NCBI RefSeq assembly: GCF_019656055.1
Contig: NZ_BPKY01000006.1
Coordinates: 1-64,000, forward strand
DNA length: 64,000 nt
Source: Leuconostoc miyukkimchii
GTDB taxonomy: Bacteria > Bacillota > Bacilli > Lactobacillales > Lactobacillaceae
Direction of reading: 5' to 3'
Part shown: positions 4,976-59,298 of the stretch, one piece after another
Layout of the letters: each line of letters opens with the position of its first letter
How positions within the stretch are numbered: position 1 is the stretch's first letter
The notes under the pieces: generated by a model
The model's database searches: none
Seen by the model: the letters and a program-made list of their open reading frames with translations, nothing else
What the model was told of the DNA's origin: nothing
Translations under genes and position numbers: made by a program

Positions 4976-5044
4976 ATTACATTAAGAGCGGACGTTTCGT
5001 GTGTGATGACAAGACAAGAACGCGTTGCGTCGCTCATTTCCTCC
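4976..5044 (-). promoter_or_regulatory. Structured spacer between alsS Shine-Dalgarno and start
   Basis: GGAGG lies at 5040-5044, but the alsS ATG is at 4975 and the frame is closed by a TAA just upstream (4982-4984). Between them GAGCG-ACG can pair with CGT-C-CGCTC (5028-5035 with 4986-4994, one bulge). Folding leaves about 4+10 unpaired nt between Shine-Dalgarno and ATG. An ATG immediately after GGAGG opens a 42-codon frame out of phase with alsS. This is the weakest hairpin of the set, and a leader peptide is the alternative. Confidence 0.5.
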
Positions 5045-6533: not shown

Positions 6534-6584
6534 AGTAGTTAGAGTTCGATATGATTTTAAATCATATCAAACACGTTTCTCCTT
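6534..6584 (-). promoter_or_regulatory. 12-bp hairpin between obgE Shine-Dalgarno and start
   Basis: AAGGAG (6579-6584) and the conserved ATG (6533) are separated by 45 nt. Positions 6561-6572 pair with 6544-6555 (12 bp, one G-U, 5-nt loop). Only 6 nt upstream and 10 nt downstream of the stem stay unpaired, so folding brings the ribosome site to 16 nt. A GTG next to the Shine-Dalgarno is out of frame and closes at a TAA 8 nt before the real ATG. There is no U-tract, so it is not a terminator. Confidence 0.8.
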
Positions 6585-8539: not shown

Positions 8540-10165
<1,626 letters not shown>

Positions 10166-10214
10166 TCATGATTTTCAGCGCAGGCGCGCTTGCAACGTTT
10201 TAGGGGTAAAAATA

Positions 10215-10278
10215 AATTAGAAAAGCCCCCAAGAACAACTTGGGAGCTTTTAACGTCTGTCCCATTAAATGGGAGCCC
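10215..10278 (-). promoter_or_regulatory. pyrG CTP-sensing attenuator leader
   Basis: The predicted transcript begins GGGCTCCC at 10278. About 30-50 nt later a 9-bp terminator stem (10239-10247 with 10225-10233, 5-nt loop) begins GCTCCC on its 5' arm and ends in TTTT. In Bacillus subtilis low CTP makes RNA polymerase stutter at the initial Gs, and the added G-tract pairs with this CU-rich arm to form an antiterminator. All sequence elements of that mechanism are here; operation in this organism is inferred. Confidence 0.85.
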
Positions 10279-10284
10279 TAATAT

Positions 10285-10313
10285 ATAATACAGATTTAAC
10301 CTGTTTTTGTCAA
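10285..10313 (-). promoter_or_regulatory. Promoter of pyrG
   Basis: TTGACA (10308-10313), 17 nt, TATTAT (10285-10290), then six nt to a GGG start at 10278. It directly abuts the rlmCD stop codon, so upstream operon transcripts also run into the attenuator. Confidence 0.88.
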
Positions 10314-10322
10314 ACTTTTTAA

Positions 10323-11717
10323 TTATTCCGCTACACGCTTGAAAACTGTAATCGTTTCAACATGTGTTGTCTGTGGGAATTGATCAATTGGTTGAATAGC
10401 CCCATCAATTTTAAAGCCTTCTGCCAAAATTTGCACAGCATCTCGTGCCAATGTTGCTGGGTTACAACTAATATAAACAAAAGTCTCTGGCTTCATTGCA
10501 CTAACAGCAGAAATTAATTCACTGGTCAAACCTTTACGTGGCGGATCAACGAAAACAACATTTGGTTTCAAACCATCTTCTGCCCATTGTACCATTTGCT
10601 CAGGCGCATCAGCAATGACAAATTCAGCGTTATCAATATGATTATTTTTAGCATTTTTTTCAGCGTCAGCTACTGCGTTTTCAACAACCTCAACGCCATA
10701 AATCTTCTTAACTTGATCAGCAATTGACAACGTAATTGTGCCAATACCTGAATAAGCATCAACAACAGTATCTGTTGCTTTTAATCCTGCTTTTTCAGCT
10801 GCCAAACGATACAAAGTGGCCGTTGTTTGTGGATTAACTTGGTAAAAAGAATTTGGTCCAATCACAAAATCCTTACCCATTAACTGGTCATGAATTTCAT
10901 CAGCGCCCCAAATTGTTTCGTTCCATTGACCCATAATAACATTTGTATCACGATTATTGATATTGTGGATAAAGCTCTTTAATTCTGGTAGTTTTACCTG
11001 TAATTGTTTTGCAATTTCTTCCGCTTCAGGTAATCGTTTGGTATTTGTCACAATCACAACCATTAACTCATGTGAATAATAGCCACGACGTGCCATGATA
11101 TGACGAACAACTCCCTTGTTGGACTCTTCGTCATACGCAGACAAGCCTAAGTCACGTAAAACATCACGTGTCGCAATCACGGCTTCATCAACTTTTGGAT
11201 CTTGAATGTAAAAATCATCCGTAGGTATCAACTTATGAGACCCACGTCGATAAAATCCCGTCTCTAAGCGACCATTAATATTTTGTACCGGTACTTGTGC
11301 TTTATTACGATATTTTGTTGGATTTTCCATGCCCAGCGTTGGACTAACTTCAACGTCGAGATTGACCTTTTTAAACATCTGTTCAACTTGATGCTGTTTA
11401 AAAGTCAATTGTGCATCATATTTTAAGTTTGCTAAGGGCGCAATTCCTGTTGTTATTGCGACTTTATCCACATTTTTAGCACGATTTGGTGATTCTTGTA
11501 TGCGAGATAAAACACGTCCAAACGCATAATTTTTAAGAACTTTAGTAATACCTATTTTAACAATTTCACCAGGAATTGCATCAACCACAAAAATGGGGAA
11601 ATTATCAATTTTAATGACACCCATGCCTTGATAAGTGATATCAATAACTTCACCTTCAAGTTCCTGATTCTTGTTGACGGGTACTGCTGTTTTGTAAATA
11701 CGGTTAGCTTTTGCCAT
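10323..11717 (-). CDS. 23S rRNA uracil-5 methyltransferase, RlmCD/RumA family
   Basis: SAM-dependent methyltransferase forming 5-methyluridine in 23S rRNA. The 464-aa protein has an N-terminal TRAM domain, the SAM motif DAYSGIGTITLSIA, and the catalytic Cys in FVYISCNPATLARD. The Cys residues that ligate an iron-sulfur cluster in E. coli RumA are absent: the equivalent stretch reads ITTGIAPLANLKYDAQLTFK. RlmCD of Gram-positives or TrmFO-independent m5U enzymes are the closest alternatives. The ATG at 11717 (MAKANR) is chosen; an in-frame GTG five codons upstream has no ribosome site. It is the last gene of gatCAB-dagK-rlmCD. Confidence 0.88.
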   Translation of the reverse strand: MAKANRIYKTAVPVNKNQELEGEVIDITYQGMGVIKIDNFPIFVVDAIPGEIVKIGITKVLKNYAFGRVLSRIQESPNRAKNVDKVAITTGIAPLANLKYDAQLTFKQHQVEQMFKKVNLDVEVSPTLGMENPTKYRNKAQVPVQNINGRLETGFYRRGSHKLIPTDDFYIQDPKVDEAVIATRDVLRDLGLSAYDEESNKGVVRHIMARRGYYSHELMVVIVTNTKRLPEAEEIAKQLQVKLPELKSFIHNINNRDTNVIMGQWNETIWGADEIHDQLMGKDFVIGPNSFYQVNPQTTATLYRLAAEKAGLKATDTVVDAYSGIGTITLSIADQVKKIYGVEVVENAVADAEKNAKNNHIDNAEFVIADAPEQMVQWAEDGLKPNVVFVDPPRKGLTSELISAVSAMKPETFVYISCNPATLARDAVQILAEGFKIDGAIQPIDQFPQTTHVETITVFKRVAE

Positions 11718-11778
11718 ATATTTATAAATCACGCAACGTTCTAGTCAATACTAGCCATTGTGCGACATATTTCCTTTC
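11718..11778 (-). promoter_or_regulatory. Two-part hairpin between rlmCD Shine-Dalgarno and start
   Basis: GAAAGGA (11772-11778) is 54 nt from the ATG. TCGCACAA (11758-11765) pairs with TTGCGTGA (11729-11736) with one A-C mismatch, and inside it CTAGT pairs with ACTAG (11750-11754 with 11741-11745). Unpaired distance after folding is about 17 nt. An in-phase ATG next to the Shine-Dalgarno is closed by TAG after five codons, so it cannot be the gene's start. Confidence 0.7.
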
Positions 11779-11806
11779 TTGGGTCTTTCGACACCCACTA
11801 TAAAAC

Positions 11807-12796
11807 TTATTTAACGTCGAGTTTTTCGACGTCTGCTACGAATTTTGCCTTATTTTTATCAGAAACTGTCGCTTTCTTTTGCATACCAGAACGATTCGCA
11901 ACAAATTCAATGTGTTGTTGTAAATCAGTAAATACCATTGGTGCATCCCCACCATATTCGCCATCCAAATTAACTTTTAACTGATCTTCATCAAGAGGCA
12001 AAATTTCTACCTGACTTGTTTTTTTATAAATCATTTGTGGATTATCAATATGCTTGCCACCATTTAGCATTTGCGCAACAATTTGCAAAATTTGAGCCAA
12101 ATTTGATTCCTTAATGATCAACAAGGTAAACTTACCATCATCCAATTTAGCATCTGGAACAATTGATTCAAAACCGCCAACTGAGTTTGTTAAAGCTAAA
12201 AATATCATCGAAATTTTTCCAGAATATTCACCACCATCATAGCTAACTTTAGCGTTAACTGGCTTTATTCGTGTGATTAACTCAGCGCCTTTAACAAGAT
12301 ATGCAAGGTATCCGTAAAGAGATTTCATCAGAGATGGCACAGCATAGGTCACTTCACTAACAGTACCAAGCGCTGCAATATTCATAAAATATTTTGTTTC
12401 TTTCGCTTGATCAATTTTACCAATGTCCATTTTAATTGTTTCATGTTGGAAAATAATTTTAGCAGATTCTAGCGGTTCGTCGCGAGGTAATTTTAATGCA
12501 CGTGCGTAGTCATTGGTTGTACCTGCTGGGATAACTGCCATCATTGGGCGCTTTTTTAAAGGTGCTAGTCCATTAACAACTTCGTTAATCGTGCCATCTC
12601 CTCCTGCAGCTATAATCAAGTCAAAGCCTGCCTCAGCTGCACGTTTTGCCTCTTTTGCTGCAGACATTGGTTCCGGTGTCGTTGCAAAAGCTGATGTTTC
12701 GTAACCAGCCAATTCATATACATGAAGAATATCAAGCATTTCACGTTTAACTGCTTCACGTCCAGACGTTGGGTTATAGATAATTCTCGCTCTCAT
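11807..12796 (-). CDS. dagK: Diacylglycerol kinase, DgkB type
   Basis: Cytosolic lipid kinase that phosphorylates diacylglycerol to phosphatidate, recycling lipid left by lipoteichoic acid synthesis. The 329-aa protein opens with MRARIIYNPTSGRE and has the GGDGTINEVVNGL nucleotide-binding motif and PAGTTNDYARAL of the DAGK catalytic family. The 33-nt extension upstream of 12796 lacks support, so MRARII is taken as the start. It sits between gatB and rlmCD. A second, shorter homologue is at 47869-48798. The sequence places it in the family; substrate is inferred from the gatB-linked DgkB order. Confidence 0.92.
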   Translation of the reverse strand: MRARIIYNPTSGREAVKREMLDILHVYELAGYETSAFATTPEPMSAAKEAKRAAEAGFDLIIAAGGDGTINEVVNGLAPLKKRPMMAVIPAGTTNDYARALKLPRDEPLESAKIIFQHETIKMDIGKIDQAKETKYFMNIAALGTVSEVTYAVPSLMKSLYGYLAYLVKGAELITRIKPVNAKVSYDGGEYSGKISMIFLALTNSVGGFESIVPDAKLDDGKFTLLIIKESNLAQILQIVAQMLNGGKHIDNPQMIYKKTSQVEILPLDEDQLKVNLDGEYGGDAPMVFTDLQQHIEFVANRSGMQKKATVSDKNKAKFVADVEKLDVK

Positions 12797-12867
12797 GTTA
12801 GAGTGTGTAGTAATGATTAATGGTACCAATCATTGCAAAACACGTTATCGTGCCACACTTTCCTTTC
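12797..12867 (-). promoter_or_regulatory. Three-way-junction fold between dagK Shine-Dalgarno and start
   Basis: GAAAGGA (12861-12867) is 64 nt from the ATG. GTGTG (12854-12858) pairs with CACAC (12803-12807), enclosing two hairpins: CACG-ATAA-CGTG (12841-12852) and AATGATT/AATCATT (12828-12834 with 12812-12818). Only 2+6 nt stay unpaired outside, which restores an ideal 8-nt spacing. The GTG right after the Shine-Dalgarno is out of frame. This is the most elaborate member of the set. Confidence 0.8.
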
Positions 12868-12943
12868 ATAAAAATTATGTACACAGGCGTAACCCTGCAT
12901 AGATTTACGCTTTATATTGATTTGCACTTTTCAACTAGAAGAA

Positions 12944-14383
12944 TTAACGTTTAGCTAATTCCTCTAGAAGCATTTTATTCATAATACCTGGATTTGCTTG
13001 TCCTTTGGACATCTTCATTAACTGGCCAATTAGGTATCCTGTAGCACGATCCTTACCACCCTTGAAATCTTCAATAGACTGTGGATTATTGTCCAAGACT
13101 TCAGTAATCCAGCCTAATAAAATAGCAGGATCACTAATTTGTACTAACCCATTCTTTTTAGCAAAAGCTTCTGGATCTTCTCCAACCATAATTGCCTCAA
13201 ACACTTGCTTAGCTTGCTTTGTAGAAATCGTACCAGCTTCAATTAATTTAATCATACCAGCCAAATGTTCTGGTGTTAACTGTGTTTCTTGTAACTCTAT
13301 TTGGTGTTTATTCATAAACGCATTAACATCGCCAATCAAATAGTTTGCTGCACGTTTAGCGTCTGCACCAGCTGCAACGGTTGCATCATAAAAATCAGAC
13401 ATCGCAAGTGTCTGCGTCAATACTTCAGCATCATATGCTGCAATACCAAAATCTGATACATACTCATTTTGTCGCTCGCCAGCTGATTTTGGTAATTCAT
13501 TGGCAACCTTATTTATCCAAGATTGATCAATCACAATTGGTGCTAAATCTGGTTCAGGGAAATAACGGTAGTCATCTGCCCCTTCCTTAACACGCATCAA
13601 AATTGTTGATTTCGTTGGTTCATTATATCGACGTGTTTCTTGTTGAATAATGCCACCAGCACGCAATACTTCAGCTTGTCGCTTCTCTTCAAAAATCAAT
13701 GCGTTACGCACATAGTTGAAGGAATTAATATTCTTCATTTCAACTTTTGTACCATACTCAGAAGATCCAAAAGGTCGAATTGAAATATTGACATCGGCAC
13801 GCATTTGACCTTCTTGCATTTTAGCTTCTGAAATACCAGTAAACAAAATAGCTTGACGTAATTGTTCCAAGTAAGCATACGCTTCATCAGGTGATGCAAT
13901 GTCTGGTTCAGAAACAATTTCAATCAGTGGCGTTCCTTGTCGATTTAAATCAACATAAGAATACCCATCAGTACCGTGTGTATTTTTACCGGCATCTTCT
14001 TCAACGTGCATTTCTTTAATACGCACACGTTTCACATTACCATCCGGCAATGTCACATCCAAATAACCATTTGTACCCAAAGGTGTTTGCGACTGTGTTG
14101 TCTGATAAGCCTTTGGATTATCAGGATAGAAATAATTTTTACGATCCCAACGAATAAATGGTGAGACGGTTGCATGCAAAGCCAACGCAGCACGCATACC
14201 AAACTCTATTGCACCCTTGTTAGCTACTGGTAAAACACCTGGATAACCAAAGTCAATGACGTTGGTATTTTCATTTGGTTTGTCACCATAATGCACCGGT
14301 GAAGGTGACATAAGCTTTGAGTTTGTCTGCATTTCGACGTGGACTTCAAGTCCAATAGTCGTTTCAAAGTTTCCTGTTGCCAT
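12944..14383 (-). CDS. gatB: Aspartyl/glutamyl-tRNA amidotransferase subunit B
   Basis: Part of GatCAB, which amidates Glu-tRNA(Gln) and Asp-tRNA(Asn); GatB holds the kinase/tRNA-recognition part. The 479-aa protein starts [20 protein letters not shown], has the GatB catalytic cradle (about 1-290), helical domain and a C-terminal YqeY-like tail ending in [16 protein letters not shown]. The conserved start makes the ATG at 14383 secure, although the Shine-Dalgarno is about 90 nt upstream across a fold. Third gene of gatC-gatA-gatB; dagK and rlmCD follow. Confidence 0.97.
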
Positions 14384-14478
14384 AATTTTTAGCGCGTGAA
14401 TGGATACAGCTTTTAATTACTGATGTACAAATTAGACATTGTAGTAACCAAACTGTATCTAGAAACGCATTTCCTCCC
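14384..14478 (-). promoter_or_regulatory. Long hairpin between gatB Shine-Dalgarno and start
   Basis: GGGAGG (14473-14478) and ATG (14383) are 89 nt apart. GATACAG (14453-14459) pairs with CTGTATC (14403-14409). Outside it GCGT pairs with ACGC (14465-14468 with 14394-14397), and inside it TTACT/AGTAA and ATGT/ACAT continue the stem. Unpaired nt outside the fold total 4+10. An ATG touching the Shine-Dalgarno reads in the gatB phase but stops after three codons. Confidence 0.78.
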
Positions 14479-14485
14479 TCTTAGC

Positions 14486-15952
14486 TTAATATTGCTTAGC
14501 GATATCTGGTAATTGTTCAAATAAACGACTAGCTTGTTCAAATGCATAGCCTGTTTGATAGACTGTTGCTTCATCGAATGGTTTACCAATAATTTGTAAT
14601 CCAACTGGCAAGCCATCAACAAAACCAGCATTAACTGACAAGCCAGGTAATCCAGCCAAGTTAACTGGAATGGTCAACACATCTGCTAGATACATAGCAG
14701 TAGGATCGTCAATTTCTTCTCCTAAACCGTAAGCAACAGTTGGTGCTGTTGGTCCAACAATAACATCATAATCAGCAAAAACCTTGTTAAAGTCTTCTAT
14801 TAATAATGTTCTGATTTTTGCTGCCTTCTTGAAGAAGGCATCATAAGCACCTGCAGATAATGAGAAAGTACCAAGCATAATACGGCGCTTAACTTCGTCG
14901 CCAAATCCTTCTGAACGTGTTTTAATATATAAATCTTCTAGATTTTTAACATCGTCTGCTCTAAAGCCATAACGTACACCATCATAACGTTGCAAGTTTG
15001 ATGAGGCTTCAGAAGACATAATAATATAGTATGCAGCAACACCGTATTTCGTATGTGGCAAGCTCACTTCGTCAACAATTGCCCCTAATGCTTCAAGCTG
15101 AGCAATTGCTGCCTTAACCGTTTTGGCAACTTTAGGATCAATACCTTCTCCAAAATATTCTTTTGGTACTGCAATTTTTAAGCCTTTAACATCCCCTGTC
15201 AACTTCGACGTAAAATCAGGGACTTCACGCGTAGATGACGTTGAATCTTTGGCATCAAATCCAGCAATTGTGTTCAATACGAGAGCATTATCTTTGACTG
15301 TACGTGTAAATGGCCCAACCTGATCTAAAGATGAAGCCATAGCAAACAATCCCCAACGAGAAACACGACCATATGTTGGTTTCAATCCAACAATACCATT
15401 GAAGGCTGCTGGCTGACGAATTGAACCACCAGTATCAGAACCTAAAGCAAACGGTACCAGTCCACCAGCAACAGCTGCTGCTGATCCACCAGATGATCCA
15501 CCTGGTACTTTTGTTTGATCCCATGCATTCGTTGTTGTTTTGTAATATGATGTCTCTGTTGAACCACCCATAGCGAACTCATCCATGTTAGTTTTTCCAA
15601 CAGATATCGCACCAACTGTGTTTAATTTATCAACAACTGTGGCATCATAAACAGGCTTAAAATTTTCCAAAATGCGTGAAGCACCAGTAGTTTGAATACC
15701 ATTTGTAGCTAAATTATCTTTTAATGCCACCGGTAAACCAGATAAAATATTTGTAAAATCACTCTGCTCATCAATTTTTTTAGCTTGTACCAATGCCTCT
15801 TCAGGGTTAGTTGTGATAAAAGCATTTAATTTATCGTCAGTTTTGTCAATATTATCCAATGTTGATTGTGCCAAATCGACAGCCGTAATATCTTTGTTAA
15901 TTAGTTGTTCATGCAAAGAAGTTAAGTCATTATCAAAAAAGTTAATTGTCAT
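14486..15952 (-). CDS. gatA: Aspartyl/glutamyl-tRNA amidotransferase subunit A
   Basis: Amidase-signature subunit of GatCAB that releases ammonia from glutamine for the amidation. The 488-aa protein has the catalytic Lys in [10 protein letters not shown] (about residue 77) and the Ser-cis-Ser motif in [14 protein letters not shown] with the nucleophile in [12 protein letters not shown]. Length is typical. The ATG at 15952 has GGGAG 8 nt upstream, an ordinary ribosome site. Two nt separate it from gatC, so the pair is translated together. Confidence 0.97.
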
Positions 15953-15954
15953 GA

Positions 15955-16263
15955 TTATTCTCCCTCACCATCTAAAATCGCTGGTACTTTTATTAAATCA
16001 GCGGCCTCTAGTGGTGCATTTTTTAATAATGCTTGTTTCTGATGCCAATTATCCGCCACATCTTCACGTAAATGGTTCACATTTTCAGTAACCGAGTATG
16101 TTGGTTCAACATCTTCAGTATTTACCTCACCCAATGTTTCAAAAATATTTAAAATACTATCCAACTGTGTTGTAAACTGTTTGAGATCAGAATCATTAAA
16201 TGCCAGTTTAGCCAAACTGGCAACGTGTGCAACTTCTTGTTGTGAAATTGTTGTTTCAGACAT
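15955..16263 (-). CDS. gatC: Aspartyl/glutamyl-tRNA amidotransferase subunit C
   Basis: Small belt subunit that holds GatA and GatB together. The 102-aa protein starts [20 protein letters not shown] and contains the family pattern [26 protein letters not shown] is placed 8 nt before the ATG. It is the first gene of gatCAB-dagK-rlmCD. An extended -10, TGG-TAAAAT, about 70-75 nt upstream on the minus strand is the likely promoter, divergent from rpsO. Confidence 0.96.
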
Positions 16264-16362
16264 TTATTTACTCCTTTAAACATGCTTATTATTTGACGAC
16301 TTGTACAATGAACGCTTTATATATACTCATTCATTTTACCATAAGTTTGAGCTAGTCTACGC

Positions 16363-16489
16363 TTGCATTTTAGTAATATTAGCGTATAATTAATCTTGTT
16401 GTAAAAACAACATGACCGATCACTTTGTTTAGCGTCTCACCGTCGCTTCACACAGTTTTCGGCGACATTTTAGAAAGGTGGATATGATT
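16363..16489 (+). promoter_or_regulatory. Promoter and structured leader of rpsO
   Basis: TTGCAT (16363-16368), 16 nt, TATAAT (16385-16390). The roughly 90-nt leader contains GTTGT/ACAAC and GTCGC/GCGAC hairpins before the GAAAGGTGG ribosome site. S15 represses its own mRNA through leader structures in several bacteria; whether these are such a site is inference. Confidence 0.65.
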
Positions 16490-16759
16490 ATGGCCCTTAC
16501 ACAAGAACGTAAGAACGAAATCATCAAGGAATATGCACGCCACGAAGGCGATACAGGTTCAGCTGAAGTACAAATCGCAGTTTTGACTGCTGATATTAAC
16601 GAGTTGAACACACACATGGCAATTCACAAGCATGATTTCCACTCACAACGTGGTTTGATGAAGAAGATTGGTAGCCGTCGTAACTTATTACGTTACCTCC
16701 GCAATACTGACATTCAACGTTACCGTGAATTAATCCAACGCTTAGGTTTGCGTCGTTAA
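16490..16759 (+). CDS. rpsO: 30S ribosomal protein S15
   Basis: Binds 16S rRNA at the central three-way junction and starts assembly of the platform. The 89-aa protein, starting [15 protein letters not shown], is exactly family length. The ATG at 16490 is preferred over ATG codons at 16478 and 16484 because GAAAGGTGG sits at normal distance and MALTQERK is the conserved start. It is followed by rpsT, probably on one transcript. Confidence 0.97.
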
Positions 16760-24450: not shown

Positions 24451-24494
24451 GATGTATAGACGTGCTAAAAGCATATTAGCACGTACTCTCCTTT
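24451..24494 (-). promoter_or_regulatory. 9-bp hairpin between purR Shine-Dalgarno and start
   Basis: AAAGGAG (24488-24494) and ATG (24450) are 37 nt apart. ACGTGCTAA (24476-24484) pairs perfectly with TTAGCACGT (24460-24468) around a 7-nt loop, leaving 3+9 unpaired nt. The GTG at the stem foot is out of frame and stops after five codons. Confidence 0.8.
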
Positions 24495-29517: not shown

Positions 29518-29620
29518 ATTTTTAAGCGTACAAAGGACCGTGTATTACCGACACATCTAGATAATTAACATTATTCATTCTAGACGTTATCTCATACGCA
29601 ACACTTAGCACTTTTCCTCC
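29518..29620 (-). promoter_or_regulatory. Extended fold between tatD Shine-Dalgarno and start
   Basis: GGAGG (29616-29620) is 98 nt from the ATG. ACGTCTAGA pairs with TCTAGATGT (29579-29587 with 29553-29561, one G-U). Outside, TAAG and GCGTA (within 29595-29607) pair with TACGCTTA (29523-29530), leaving 8+5 unpaired nt. A GTG near the Shine-Dalgarno opens a 29-codon out-of-frame reading that ends at TAA just before the ATG, so a regulatory leader peptide is the main alternative. Confidence 0.68.
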
Positions 29621-47868: not shown

Positions 47869-48798
47869 ATGCCTAATTTTTATGTCATTCATAATCCTCG
47901 CGCTGGCCGAGGTGCACACAAAAGCATTATCACCACTATTAAAAAAATGCCAAACATAATGGCCTGGTATGAATCTAATTACGCTGGTCACGCGATATAC
48001 CTAGCTAAAAATTTAGCAAGACATGTTGATGCCTCAACTTCAGTTATCCTAGTTTTGGGAGGTGATGGTACATTAAACGAAGTATTAAATGGTTTACTTC
48101 AAATTAAACATGAACCAAAAATACCTATCGCTTATATACCAACAGGTTCTGGCAATGATTTTGCCCGTGGTAATCATCTTGGTACAGCAAAACAAGCACT
48201 AGAACATCTACAACGTGTTACTCAGAGTCAGATGCTTAACATTGGTGAAATTCATGGTGATGCACCCCATCATACGACGAAATACTTTGTTAATAGTATT
48301 GGTATTGGACTTGATGCTGCTGTTGTTGCTCATGCAAATGAGACAGCTTGGAAAAAACGATTCAACAAAATAGGACTTGGATCACTCAGTTATTTAATTG
48401 CTGTTTTAACCATTTTTTTCAAACAAAATGCTTTTCAAATGACTATTACCAATGGAAAAAACTATATTCAAATTCCTAATGCATTTCTTGTCACCTTGAC
48501 AAATCAACCTTATTTTGGCGGTGGCATTGCTATTTTGCCAAATGCGAATTTTCATAAGCATGAACTTGACCTTATAATCAGTGAAAAAACATCTTTTTTT
48601 AGATTTTTAATGATGTTTGCCGCCTTAAAGAAAGACGGTAGCCACTTGAAGTTTAAATCTATACATAAGATTCCACTCGTTCGCGGCGCACAAATACATG
48701 TGCGTGACTTTCAACCGGGACAAATTGATGGTGAAAATCTTGGTTCAGGCACATATGCCTTTAAAATTGACTATCTAAACTATCCTTTTTGGCTATAA
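47869..48798 (+). CDS. DAGK-family lipid kinase
   Basis: 309-aa member of the diacylglycerol/sphingosine kinase catalytic family. FYVIHNPRAGRG opens the protein and VLGGDGTLNEVLNGLL binds nucleotide; PTGSGNDFARG and the C-terminal HVRDFQPGQIDGENLG complete the fold. It differs clearly from dagK at 11807-12796 and lacks that gene's context. YegS/BmrU-like lipid kinases are the likely group. An extended -10 just downstream of the ppcA terminator is its probable promoter; the ribosome site (GAAAG) is weak and 13 nt away. Confidence 0.9.
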   Translation: MPNFYVIHNPRAGRGAHKSIITTIKKMPNIMAWYESNYAGHAIYLAKNLARHVDASTSVILVLGGDGTLNEVLNGLLQIKHEPKIPIAYIPTGSGNDFARGNHLGTAKQALEHLQRVTQSQMLNIGEIHGDAPHHTTKYFVNSIGIGLDAAVVAHANETAWKKRFNKIGLGSLSYLIAVLTIFFKQNAFQMTITNGKNYIQIPNAFLVTLTNQPYFGGGIAILPNANFHKHELDLIISEKTSFFRFLMMFAALKKDGSHLKFKSIHKIPLVRGAQIHVRDFQPGQIDGENLGSGTYAFKIDYLNYPFWL

Positions 48799-51041: not shown

Positions 51042-51190
51042 AAAAGCGCACACCAACGATTAGTCGGTACGCGCTAACGTGACGACTATCTGTACAGATG
51101 GACCACCGTGCTGAAACATGTTGCCATGTTCCACCGGTTGGTGTAGGGTCATTGTGCTGTATCACTCGCCTACTCTTGATAGCTGTTTTA
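51042..51190 (-). promoter_or_regulatory. SAM-riboswitch-like leader with terminator, upstream of metK
   Basis: The leader RNA shows S-box features. CTATC-AAGAG (51173-51182) closes with GATAG (51086-51090) as P1; GTAGG/CCTAC with GAG...ATGA forms a kink-turn-like arm; a hairpin with a GCAA loop follows. The P1 3' strand continues as TAGTCG, which pairs with CGACTA in the 5' arm of a 12-bp terminator (51046-51074, then TTTT). So P1 and antiterminator exclude each other, as expected for an OFF switch. It deviates from the SAM-I consensus in the core. The SMK box common in Lactobacillales is the alternative class but fits less well. Confidence 0.68.
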
Positions 51191-54401: not shown

Positions 54402-54450
54402 TTTTAATTTGCGTTTATAATACATCAAGTATCATAAACATACCCCCTTT
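54402..54450 (-). promoter_or_regulatory. 11-bp hairpin between VIT gene Shine-Dalgarno and start
   Basis: AAAGGGGG (54443-54450) and the ATG at 54401 are 41 nt apart. GTTTATGATAC (54429-54439) pairs with GTATTATAAAC (54413-54423, one G-U) around a 5-nt loop, leaving 3+11 unpaired nt. An upstream ATG at 54428 in frame could extend the protein by nine codons, so here the case is less certain than for obgE or purR. Confidence 0.65.
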
Positions 54451-59104: not shown

Positions 59105-59226
59105 GGTCGATTCATTAATAAATTCCTAAATAGGCGTATATTCACATCGTAGTTAAAATAAAAAATCCATCAAAATATCAGCTTTATTTTTTGATATAGC
59201 GTAAAATAAAAAAATAGAATTTTTTG

Positions 59227-59298
59227 AAAGGAACAACAAGGTTAAACATCATGATTCCTAGTGAATTAATTATTAACCTTGTCACTATAATATTGACC
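59227..59298 (+). promoter_or_regulatory. 10-bp hairpin between possible Shine-Dalgarno and DUF1275 start
   Basis: GAAAGGA (59227-59233) precedes a perfect 10-bp inverted repeat, ACAAGGTTAA (59236-59245) with TTAACCTTGT (59273-59282), and the preferred ATG is at 59299. Unpaired distance is about 19 nt. An alternative ATG at 59251, with CAAGG nine nt upstream inside the stem, would explain the site without a bridge, so this is the least certain of the nine together with alsS. Confidence 0.5.

Follow-up and report, generated by a model that had tools for sequence, protein, structure and literature searches.

Structured spacers between distant Shine-Dalgarno sequences and start codons of dagK and other Leuconostoc genes: a likely form of bridged ribosome-binding site

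The minus-strand gene dagK of Leuconostoc miyukkimchii raises the question of how a ribosome could find its start codon. The only strong Shine-Dalgarno (SD) sequence ahead of it, GAAAGGA, is separated from the ATG by 64 nt, a gap that exceeds the direct working distance between SD and AUG, as in T4 genes 25 and 38, and nothing resembling an SD is found at the usual spacing. An earlier note on the window (the 64,000-nt stretch of DNA analysed here) proposed that the intervening RNA folds into a three-way junction restoring exactly 8-nt spacing, and held this fold hard to explain by chance.

The dagK leader and its variation across Leuconostoc

Folded alone, the dagK spacer reaches -16.6 kcal/mol, and its minimum free energy (MFE) structure is also the centroid: helix P1 (AGTGTG/CACACT) encloses two hairpins, P2 (GCACG-AUAA-CGTGT) and the 10-bp P3 (Table 1). 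This predicted hairpin would draw SD and AUG together. The note was correct about the GTGTG/CACAC helix, the AA before it and the TCTAAC after it, all of which appear in the spacer fold; the pairing as described leaves 8 nt unpaired, but the MFE adds one A-U pair and leaves 6. The spacer alone has a z-score of -2.70, with 3 of 200 shuffles equally stable. With flanks the z-scores are weaker (-2.20 and -1.34 in two runs), and in both flanked folds the AUG is taken up in a long-range helix with a segment lying upstream of the SD. Taken alone, the dagK fold is only moderately unusual, and it is the comparison between species that makes the case convincing.

GAAAGGA is followed by a gap of 42-126 nt before the dagK ATG in 15 of 19 Leuconostoc genomes. 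The other four (G010, G013, G014 and G018, which we take to be the L. mesenteroides group) have a gap of 14-15 nt and no hairpin, so the hairpin is dispensable. In L. fallax, GGGAG adjoins the start without a hairpin gap, and the leader of G025 is the same. Among the 15 hairpin-bearing leaders, the MFE structure of the spacer is a single exterior stem beginning 0-2 nt past the SD and ending 5-7 nt ahead of the ATG in 12. The remaining three slightly lower our trust in the bridged-site reading: in G002 the stem register is shifted by two (2 nt ahead of the ATG), and the MFE structures of G007 and G011 depart from this fold. The sequence of P1 varies among species, from AGTGTG/CACACT in L. miyukkimchii to GTGTGGC/GCCACAC, TTGTGT/GCACAA, TATGTCA/TGACATA (G015) and CATGT/ACATG (G003), with 4 bp only in G007. 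The three-way junction described in the note is present in L. miyukkimchii, but it is not the conserved feature of dagK leaders, as those of G015, G003 and G016 form a single rod.

For the covariation analysis we aligned 13 of the 15 hairpin-bearing leaders, omitting G004 and G016 as near copies of G005 and G003, and included no hairpin-less leaders. Changes were counted for P1 and P2; P3 was left out because its alignment was too uncertain. In this alignment, 89.2% of the P1/P2 cells are paired, although sliding the partners by +2 columns still leaves 68% paired, owing to the GTGTG repeat. The compensatory changes that the note had called for are borne out by the 10 cells changed on both sides (4.5 in shuffles) and by a covariation score of 0.256 (0.147 in shuffles), neither of which was reached in any of 500 shuffles; the number of pairs with a change on both sides, 4 of 11, is unexceptional, since 45 of 500 shuffles reach 4. 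Taking this together with the arm exchange in many families described below, pairing in the dagK leader has been retained despite sequence change.

P2 (12853-12840 in this window; CACG-loop-CGTG) carries a GNRA tetraloop (GUAA, GCAA or GAAA) in 11 of 15 leaders; the loop is AUAA in L. miyukkimchii, and P2 is absent in G015, G003 and G016. The longest spacer, 126 nt in the dagK locus of G001 (L026), forms a very long hairpin of -52.9 kcal/mol. Upstream of the dagK SD lies a terminator-like hairpin (12901-12880, minus strand) followed by TGTACATA (whole element 12901-12876); relatives, including other genera, have a similar hairpin with GTACATA. In 284 kb of this genome there are 13 copies of TGTACATA against 19 expected, so the motif is not over-represented; by eye, a hairpin precedes 5 of them.

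Table 1. Leaders with a structured spacer in the 64-kb window
Feature	Position	Strand	Details
dagK SD, GAAAGGA	12861..12867	-	7-nt match to the 16S 3' end (..CCUCCUUUCU)
dagK structured spacer	12797..12860	-	64 nt; P1 12859-12854/12807-12802; P2 12853-12849/12844-12840; P3 12834-12825/12821-12812; linker CTAAC 12801-12797
dagK, diacylglycerol kinase	11807..12796	-	NCBIfam NF009603; ATG 12796-12794; start conserved in relatives
rlmCD leader (rumA/RlmD-type 23S rRNA methyltransferase)	11718..11779	-	SD 11779-11772; stem 11770-11724; ATG 11717; z -3.76
gatB leader	14384..14480	-	SD 14480-14473; stem 14468-14394; ATG 14383; z -4.78
alsS (acetolactate synthase) leader	4976..5044	-	SD 5044-5040; stem 5035-4986; ATG 4975
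obgE leader	6534..6584	-	SD 6584-6579; stem 6574-6542; ATG 6533; z -7.00
purR leader	24451..24494	-	SD 24494-24488; stem 24487-24458; ATG 24450; z -4.10
TatD-family nuclease gene leader	29518..29620	-	SD 29620-29616; stem 29611-29528; ATG 29517
Leader of a protein with weak TIGR00267/MbfA matches below cut-off	54402..54450	-	SD 54450-54442; stem 54439-54413; ATG 54401; z -5.75
Leader of an unnamed 222-aa protein (no NCBIfam match)	59226..59298	+	SD 59226-59232; stem 59236-59282; ATG 59299; AUG-side linker 16 nt, outside the 5-12 nt criterion

Distant SD sequences and helix-arm coevolution in many gene families

We sampled 284 kb of the L. miyukkimchii genome and 180-200 kb from each of six other Leuconostoc genomes, and defined starts by orthologues (167 families, 166 with a usable start in L. 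miyukkimchii). SDs were scored by pairing with the 16S tail, whose 3' end GGATCACCTCCTTTCT is present in the L. miyukkimchii genome; a strong SD scores -6.5 kcal/mol or better and a distant one lies 18-110 nt upstream. In L. miyukkimchii, a strong distant SD precedes 19 of 66 starts without a near SD and 0 of 100 starts with one (Fisher 4e-9). The corresponding counts are 11/41 and 0/70 in G002, 17/51 and 5/77 in G005, 17/56 and 2/85 in G009, 17/58 and 3/97 in G012, and 14/53 and 2/98 in G015, while G014 points in the same direction but not significantly (4/21 and 2/37, p 0.12); the seven genomes share ancestry and are not independent samples. Distant SDs thus stand ahead of 19 of the 166 ortholog-defined L. 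miyukkimchii starts, and 16 of the 166 have the full architecture defined below, counting one family judged false (own_160). A stricter, ortholog-free scan found 16 of 242 ORFs. Bridged starts make up some 6-11% of the sampled L. miyukkimchii genes.

We defined the architecture as a single exterior stem that starts 0-5 nt after the SD and ends 5-12 nt before the AUG. It was found in 82 of 92 leaders from 18 families, against 13.0 +- 3.1 in dinucleotide shuffles (maximum 22 in 100 rounds). This set leaves out own_160, own_189, own_220 and own_234, in which the upstream SD lies within coding sequence and whose starts were judged wrong by eye (they are also left out of the start-codon counts below), and the five single-leader families own_44, own_94, own_148, own_184 and own_249. 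For dagK, six hand-set spacers stand in for the incorrect automatic start (own_92), so that hairpin-less G014 is absent from the dagK family. When all excluded families except own_92 are restored, 87 of 110 leaders from the seven genomes have the architecture, against 14.9 +- 3.4 (maximum 23 in 60 rounds), and the length enclosed in these 87 is 12-109 nt (median 37). In the 92-leader set, the median z-score of the spacer fold is -2.88, the helix foot lies 5 nt or less from the SD in 90 leaders, and the AUG-side linker is 8-10 nt in 63, with a mode of 9. It is therefore the AUG side that is steady, and 8 nt of total spacing does not hold as a rule.

Mean duplex energy was -10.87 kcal/mol for the native helix arms and -7.47 kcal/mol after arms were exchanged among orthologues, and none of 2000 permutations was as low as the native pairing. 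The exchange weakens pairing in 18 of 18 families, least in dagK (own -9.0, exchanged -8.6 kcal/mol) and own_188 (-4.1, -3.6). The dagK signal taken alone is weak because most species share a GUGU/ACAC core. We relied on fold z-scores, helix position and arm exchange in place of a test for restored effective spacing, which failed to discriminate real spacers from shuffled ones because nearly every RNA can fold: 12 of 21 L. miyukkimchii leaders passed, with 8.8 expected, and the other genomes were likewise at expectation. The effective spacing of bridged leaders has a mode of 13 (16S register), against 6 at ordinary starts, so the geometry is not simply restored.

In the window, 9 of 48 genes with ortholog-defined starts are bridged (Table 1), counting dagK with its hand-set start and one leader with a 16-nt AUG-side linker. 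As the note had stated, gatB and rlmCD, the neighbours of dagK, have different predicted hairpins in the same position. A gatB hairpin between GGGAGG and ATG is found in 9 of 18 Leuconostoc genomes (L. miyukkimchii, G005, G006, G007, G008, G009, G011, G012 and G017) and is of at least two unrelated kinds, while in the other nine and in the outgroup leaders examined the SD is close to the ATG; these counts were read by eye, with the seven sampled genomes checked by script and the G004 fragment omitted. The rlmCD gene is bridged in L. miyukkimchii, G002, G005 and G009 and has a weak ordinary SD (-3.8) in G012, G014 and G015. The note was right about the dagK fold and its likely meaning but underestimated its reach, as the arrangement is common in the genus and not a speciality of dagK.

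The ortholog-free scan also gave the taxonomic limits. It found 81 of 1264 ORFs in the seven Leuconostoc genomes, against a shuffle expectation of 18.3, and 8 of 286 against 3.95, a modest excess, in three genomes of two nearby genera (G024, G063 and G058). A further 646 ORFs from L. fermentum, E. faecalis, E. coli and five other Lactobacillaceae genera gave 3, all in L. fermentum, against 2.3 expected; beyond Leuconostoc and the nearby genera, the pattern does not exceed chance in the lactobacilli, Enterococcus and E. coli sampled. G056 was counted separately, with 1 of 80 ORFs having an upstream SD and z <= -2. At obgE, located through a search of 61 genomes, 7 of 30 loci are bridge-like (three Leuconostoc, G025, G056, G063 and G024), 16 are ordinary (including G019 and G058), 5 lack an SD (at least 2 through a misplaced start) and 2 were not located. 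The bridge-like cases with long AUG-side linkers (20 nt in G056, 15 nt in G025) or a hairpin of only 3 bp (G063 and G024) are weak. Among 38 annotated starts of Leuconostoc phage Lmd1 we found no convincing bridged start.

A probable structure-bridged ribosome-binding site and its alternatives

With the architecture, its excess over chance, the coevolution between species and the limits among the sampled genera established, we consider it likely that the dagK leader is a structure-bridged ribosome-binding site and that such sites are one ordinary form of translation start in Leuconostoc. The 30S subunit would pair its 16S tail with GAAAGGA, while the 64-nt spacer stays folded and its hairpin domain protrudes from the mRNA path; the AUG, a short single-stranded linker past the helix foot, would then be within reach of the P site. 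That the fold brings the distant SD to working distance, as the note had suggested, is supported by the positions of the predicted stems, by covariation and by the architecture in many families. The general layout in Leuconostoc would be an SD, 0-5 nt, a helix of any sequence, about 9 nt and the AUG, with selection preserving the pairing and the linker lengths and not the helix sequence. We infer that the hairpin keeps its fold while the ribosome is bound, that initiation relies on this SD and that the structure has a chiefly geometric and not a regulatory role. The steady AUG-side linker resembles a normal SD-AUG spacer, but the total unpaired length is longer; a helix stacked beside the SD duplex may fit this length better than simple shortening. 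A bolder proposal, possible but doubtful, is that this is a distinct and widespread initiation mode in Leuconostoc and its nearest relatives, in which the hairpin is part of the ribosome-binding site, its foot set in a fixed register 8-10 nt ahead of the AUG and perhaps stacking on the SD/anti-SD helix, with an adaptation to it in the ribosome or in a clade factor.

The hairpins could instead be regulators, such as temperature sensors or binding sites for proteins or ligands, that switch translation beyond acting as spacers. The stability of the leaders, the GNRA tetraloop of P2 in 11 of 15 dagK leaders and the ability of the flanked dagK fold to cover the AUG would suit such a role, but no helix or loop sequence is common to families among the leaders listed, and in most families the hairpin varies between species (dagK, purR and alsS keep partly shared helices). 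Moreover, the named bridged genes are functionally unrelated, gatB has both hairpin and ordinary starts within one genus, and Rfam gave no match at E 1 over 11700-14500; its gathering scores were reached only by a SAM riboswitch located elsewhere in the window. We regard regulation as unlikely. Somewhat less likely still, the SD may serve a short upstream ORF that starts in the 5' arm, the main gene being reached through coupling, reinitiation or bypassing. Of 97 leaders, 68 have an ATG or GTG in the first 9 positions past the SD, where shuffles of the whole spacer give 30 and those with the purine/pyrimidine pattern fixed give 54.6 (p 0.001), and by eye the four genomes without a dagK hairpin have a GTG there in frame with dagK. 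This excess, significant over all leaders, slightly raises the upstream-ORF reading, but it is due in part to alternating purine/pyrimidine stems, and it is unsteady when one leader is drawn per family (three draws: p 0.26, 0.23 and 0.003). The 74 leaders with ATG, GTG or TTG there are spread evenly over the three frames relative to the main ATG (21:24:29), and their stops are scattered; neither frame nor stop position is conserved relative to the main AUG.

An equally improbable reading takes the hairpins as tolerated products of insertion or template switching, with initiation through the AU-rich linker without an SD. Helix sequence and length do turn over quickly, long perfect stems are swapped between species (for example, in rlmCD of G005 and G009), and gatB and dagK alternate between bridged and ordinary starts. 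A neutral insert beside an unused SD, however, would not predict the closeness of the helix foot to the SD or the coevolution of the arms; a neutral origin with later bridging is possible. That the hairpins are transcription terminators or attenuators is scarcely credible: the hairpin just ahead of the dagK SD (12901-12880) is indeed terminator-like, but our scan for such elements over 10100-16500, which covered the leaders in that range, did not pick up the dagK spacer hairpin, the dagK spacer has no stem followed by a T tract, and the linkers are of mixed A, T and C. As causes of the bridged starts we also rejected a missing ribosomal protein S1, as a long partial rpsA match occurs in L. miyukkimchii and in most of the 41 Lactobacillaceae genomes searched, and an altered 16S tail, as the usual tail is present.

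Precedents and significance

In E. coli thrS the hairpin lies upstream of the SD and not between SD and AUG, whereas the Leuconostoc hairpins lie between the two. The split ribosome-binding site of thrS is cited for the ribosome accommodating a hairpin (PMC3936740). A closer precedent is found in T4 genes 25 and 38, for which a review describes a structure between SD and AUG that is reported to aid initiation, shortening the gap from 27 to 11 nt in gene 25 and from 22 to 5 nt in gene 38; close relatives share the gene 25 structure, which distant ones lack (PMC3014915). The predicted Leuconostoc hairpins recall these cases in shortening the gap between SD and AUG. The T4 examples are two phage genes with short structures and experimental support, while the Leuconostoc ones are many chromosomal genes known here from predicted folds, with gaps of up to 126 nt in dagK and hairpin sequences often unrelated between species. 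The predicted leader folds of L. lactis dsrLL have an arrangement other than a bridged SD, judging from the available part of that source (PMC9875047). Our search, which worked from titles and the beginnings of abstracts and had most subscription journals and bioRxiv preprints outside its coverage, found no paper on bridged SD sites in Leuconostoc. The mechanism is known from phage, and its scale, sequence turnover and steady register in a bacterial genus, not met in the literature searched, are new here.

Because an SD is generally sought some 5-10 nt from the start by start finders and expression models, bridged genes would look as if they had none. That the fold persists under sequence change suggests a mode of initiation that is in wide use and has attracted little notice. 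With its many natural and quickly evolving bridged starts, the genus could be used to test how the 30S subunit copes with structured mRNA, and the Leuconostoc hairpins could serve as spacers for expression design in food bacteria. Bridged leaders may also reveal how new RNA hairpins arise and persist in genomes.

Of additional note, the window holds a second, distant DagK relative (47884-48654, plus strand; 31% identical) and a match to the SAM riboswitch whose score equals the Rfam gathering score (51083-51185, minus strand). By eye, several starts without an SD, among them 8462 (minus strand), 21392 (plus) and 26891 (minus), have a TATAAT-like box a few nucleotides ahead of the ATG, as in leaderless transcripts.
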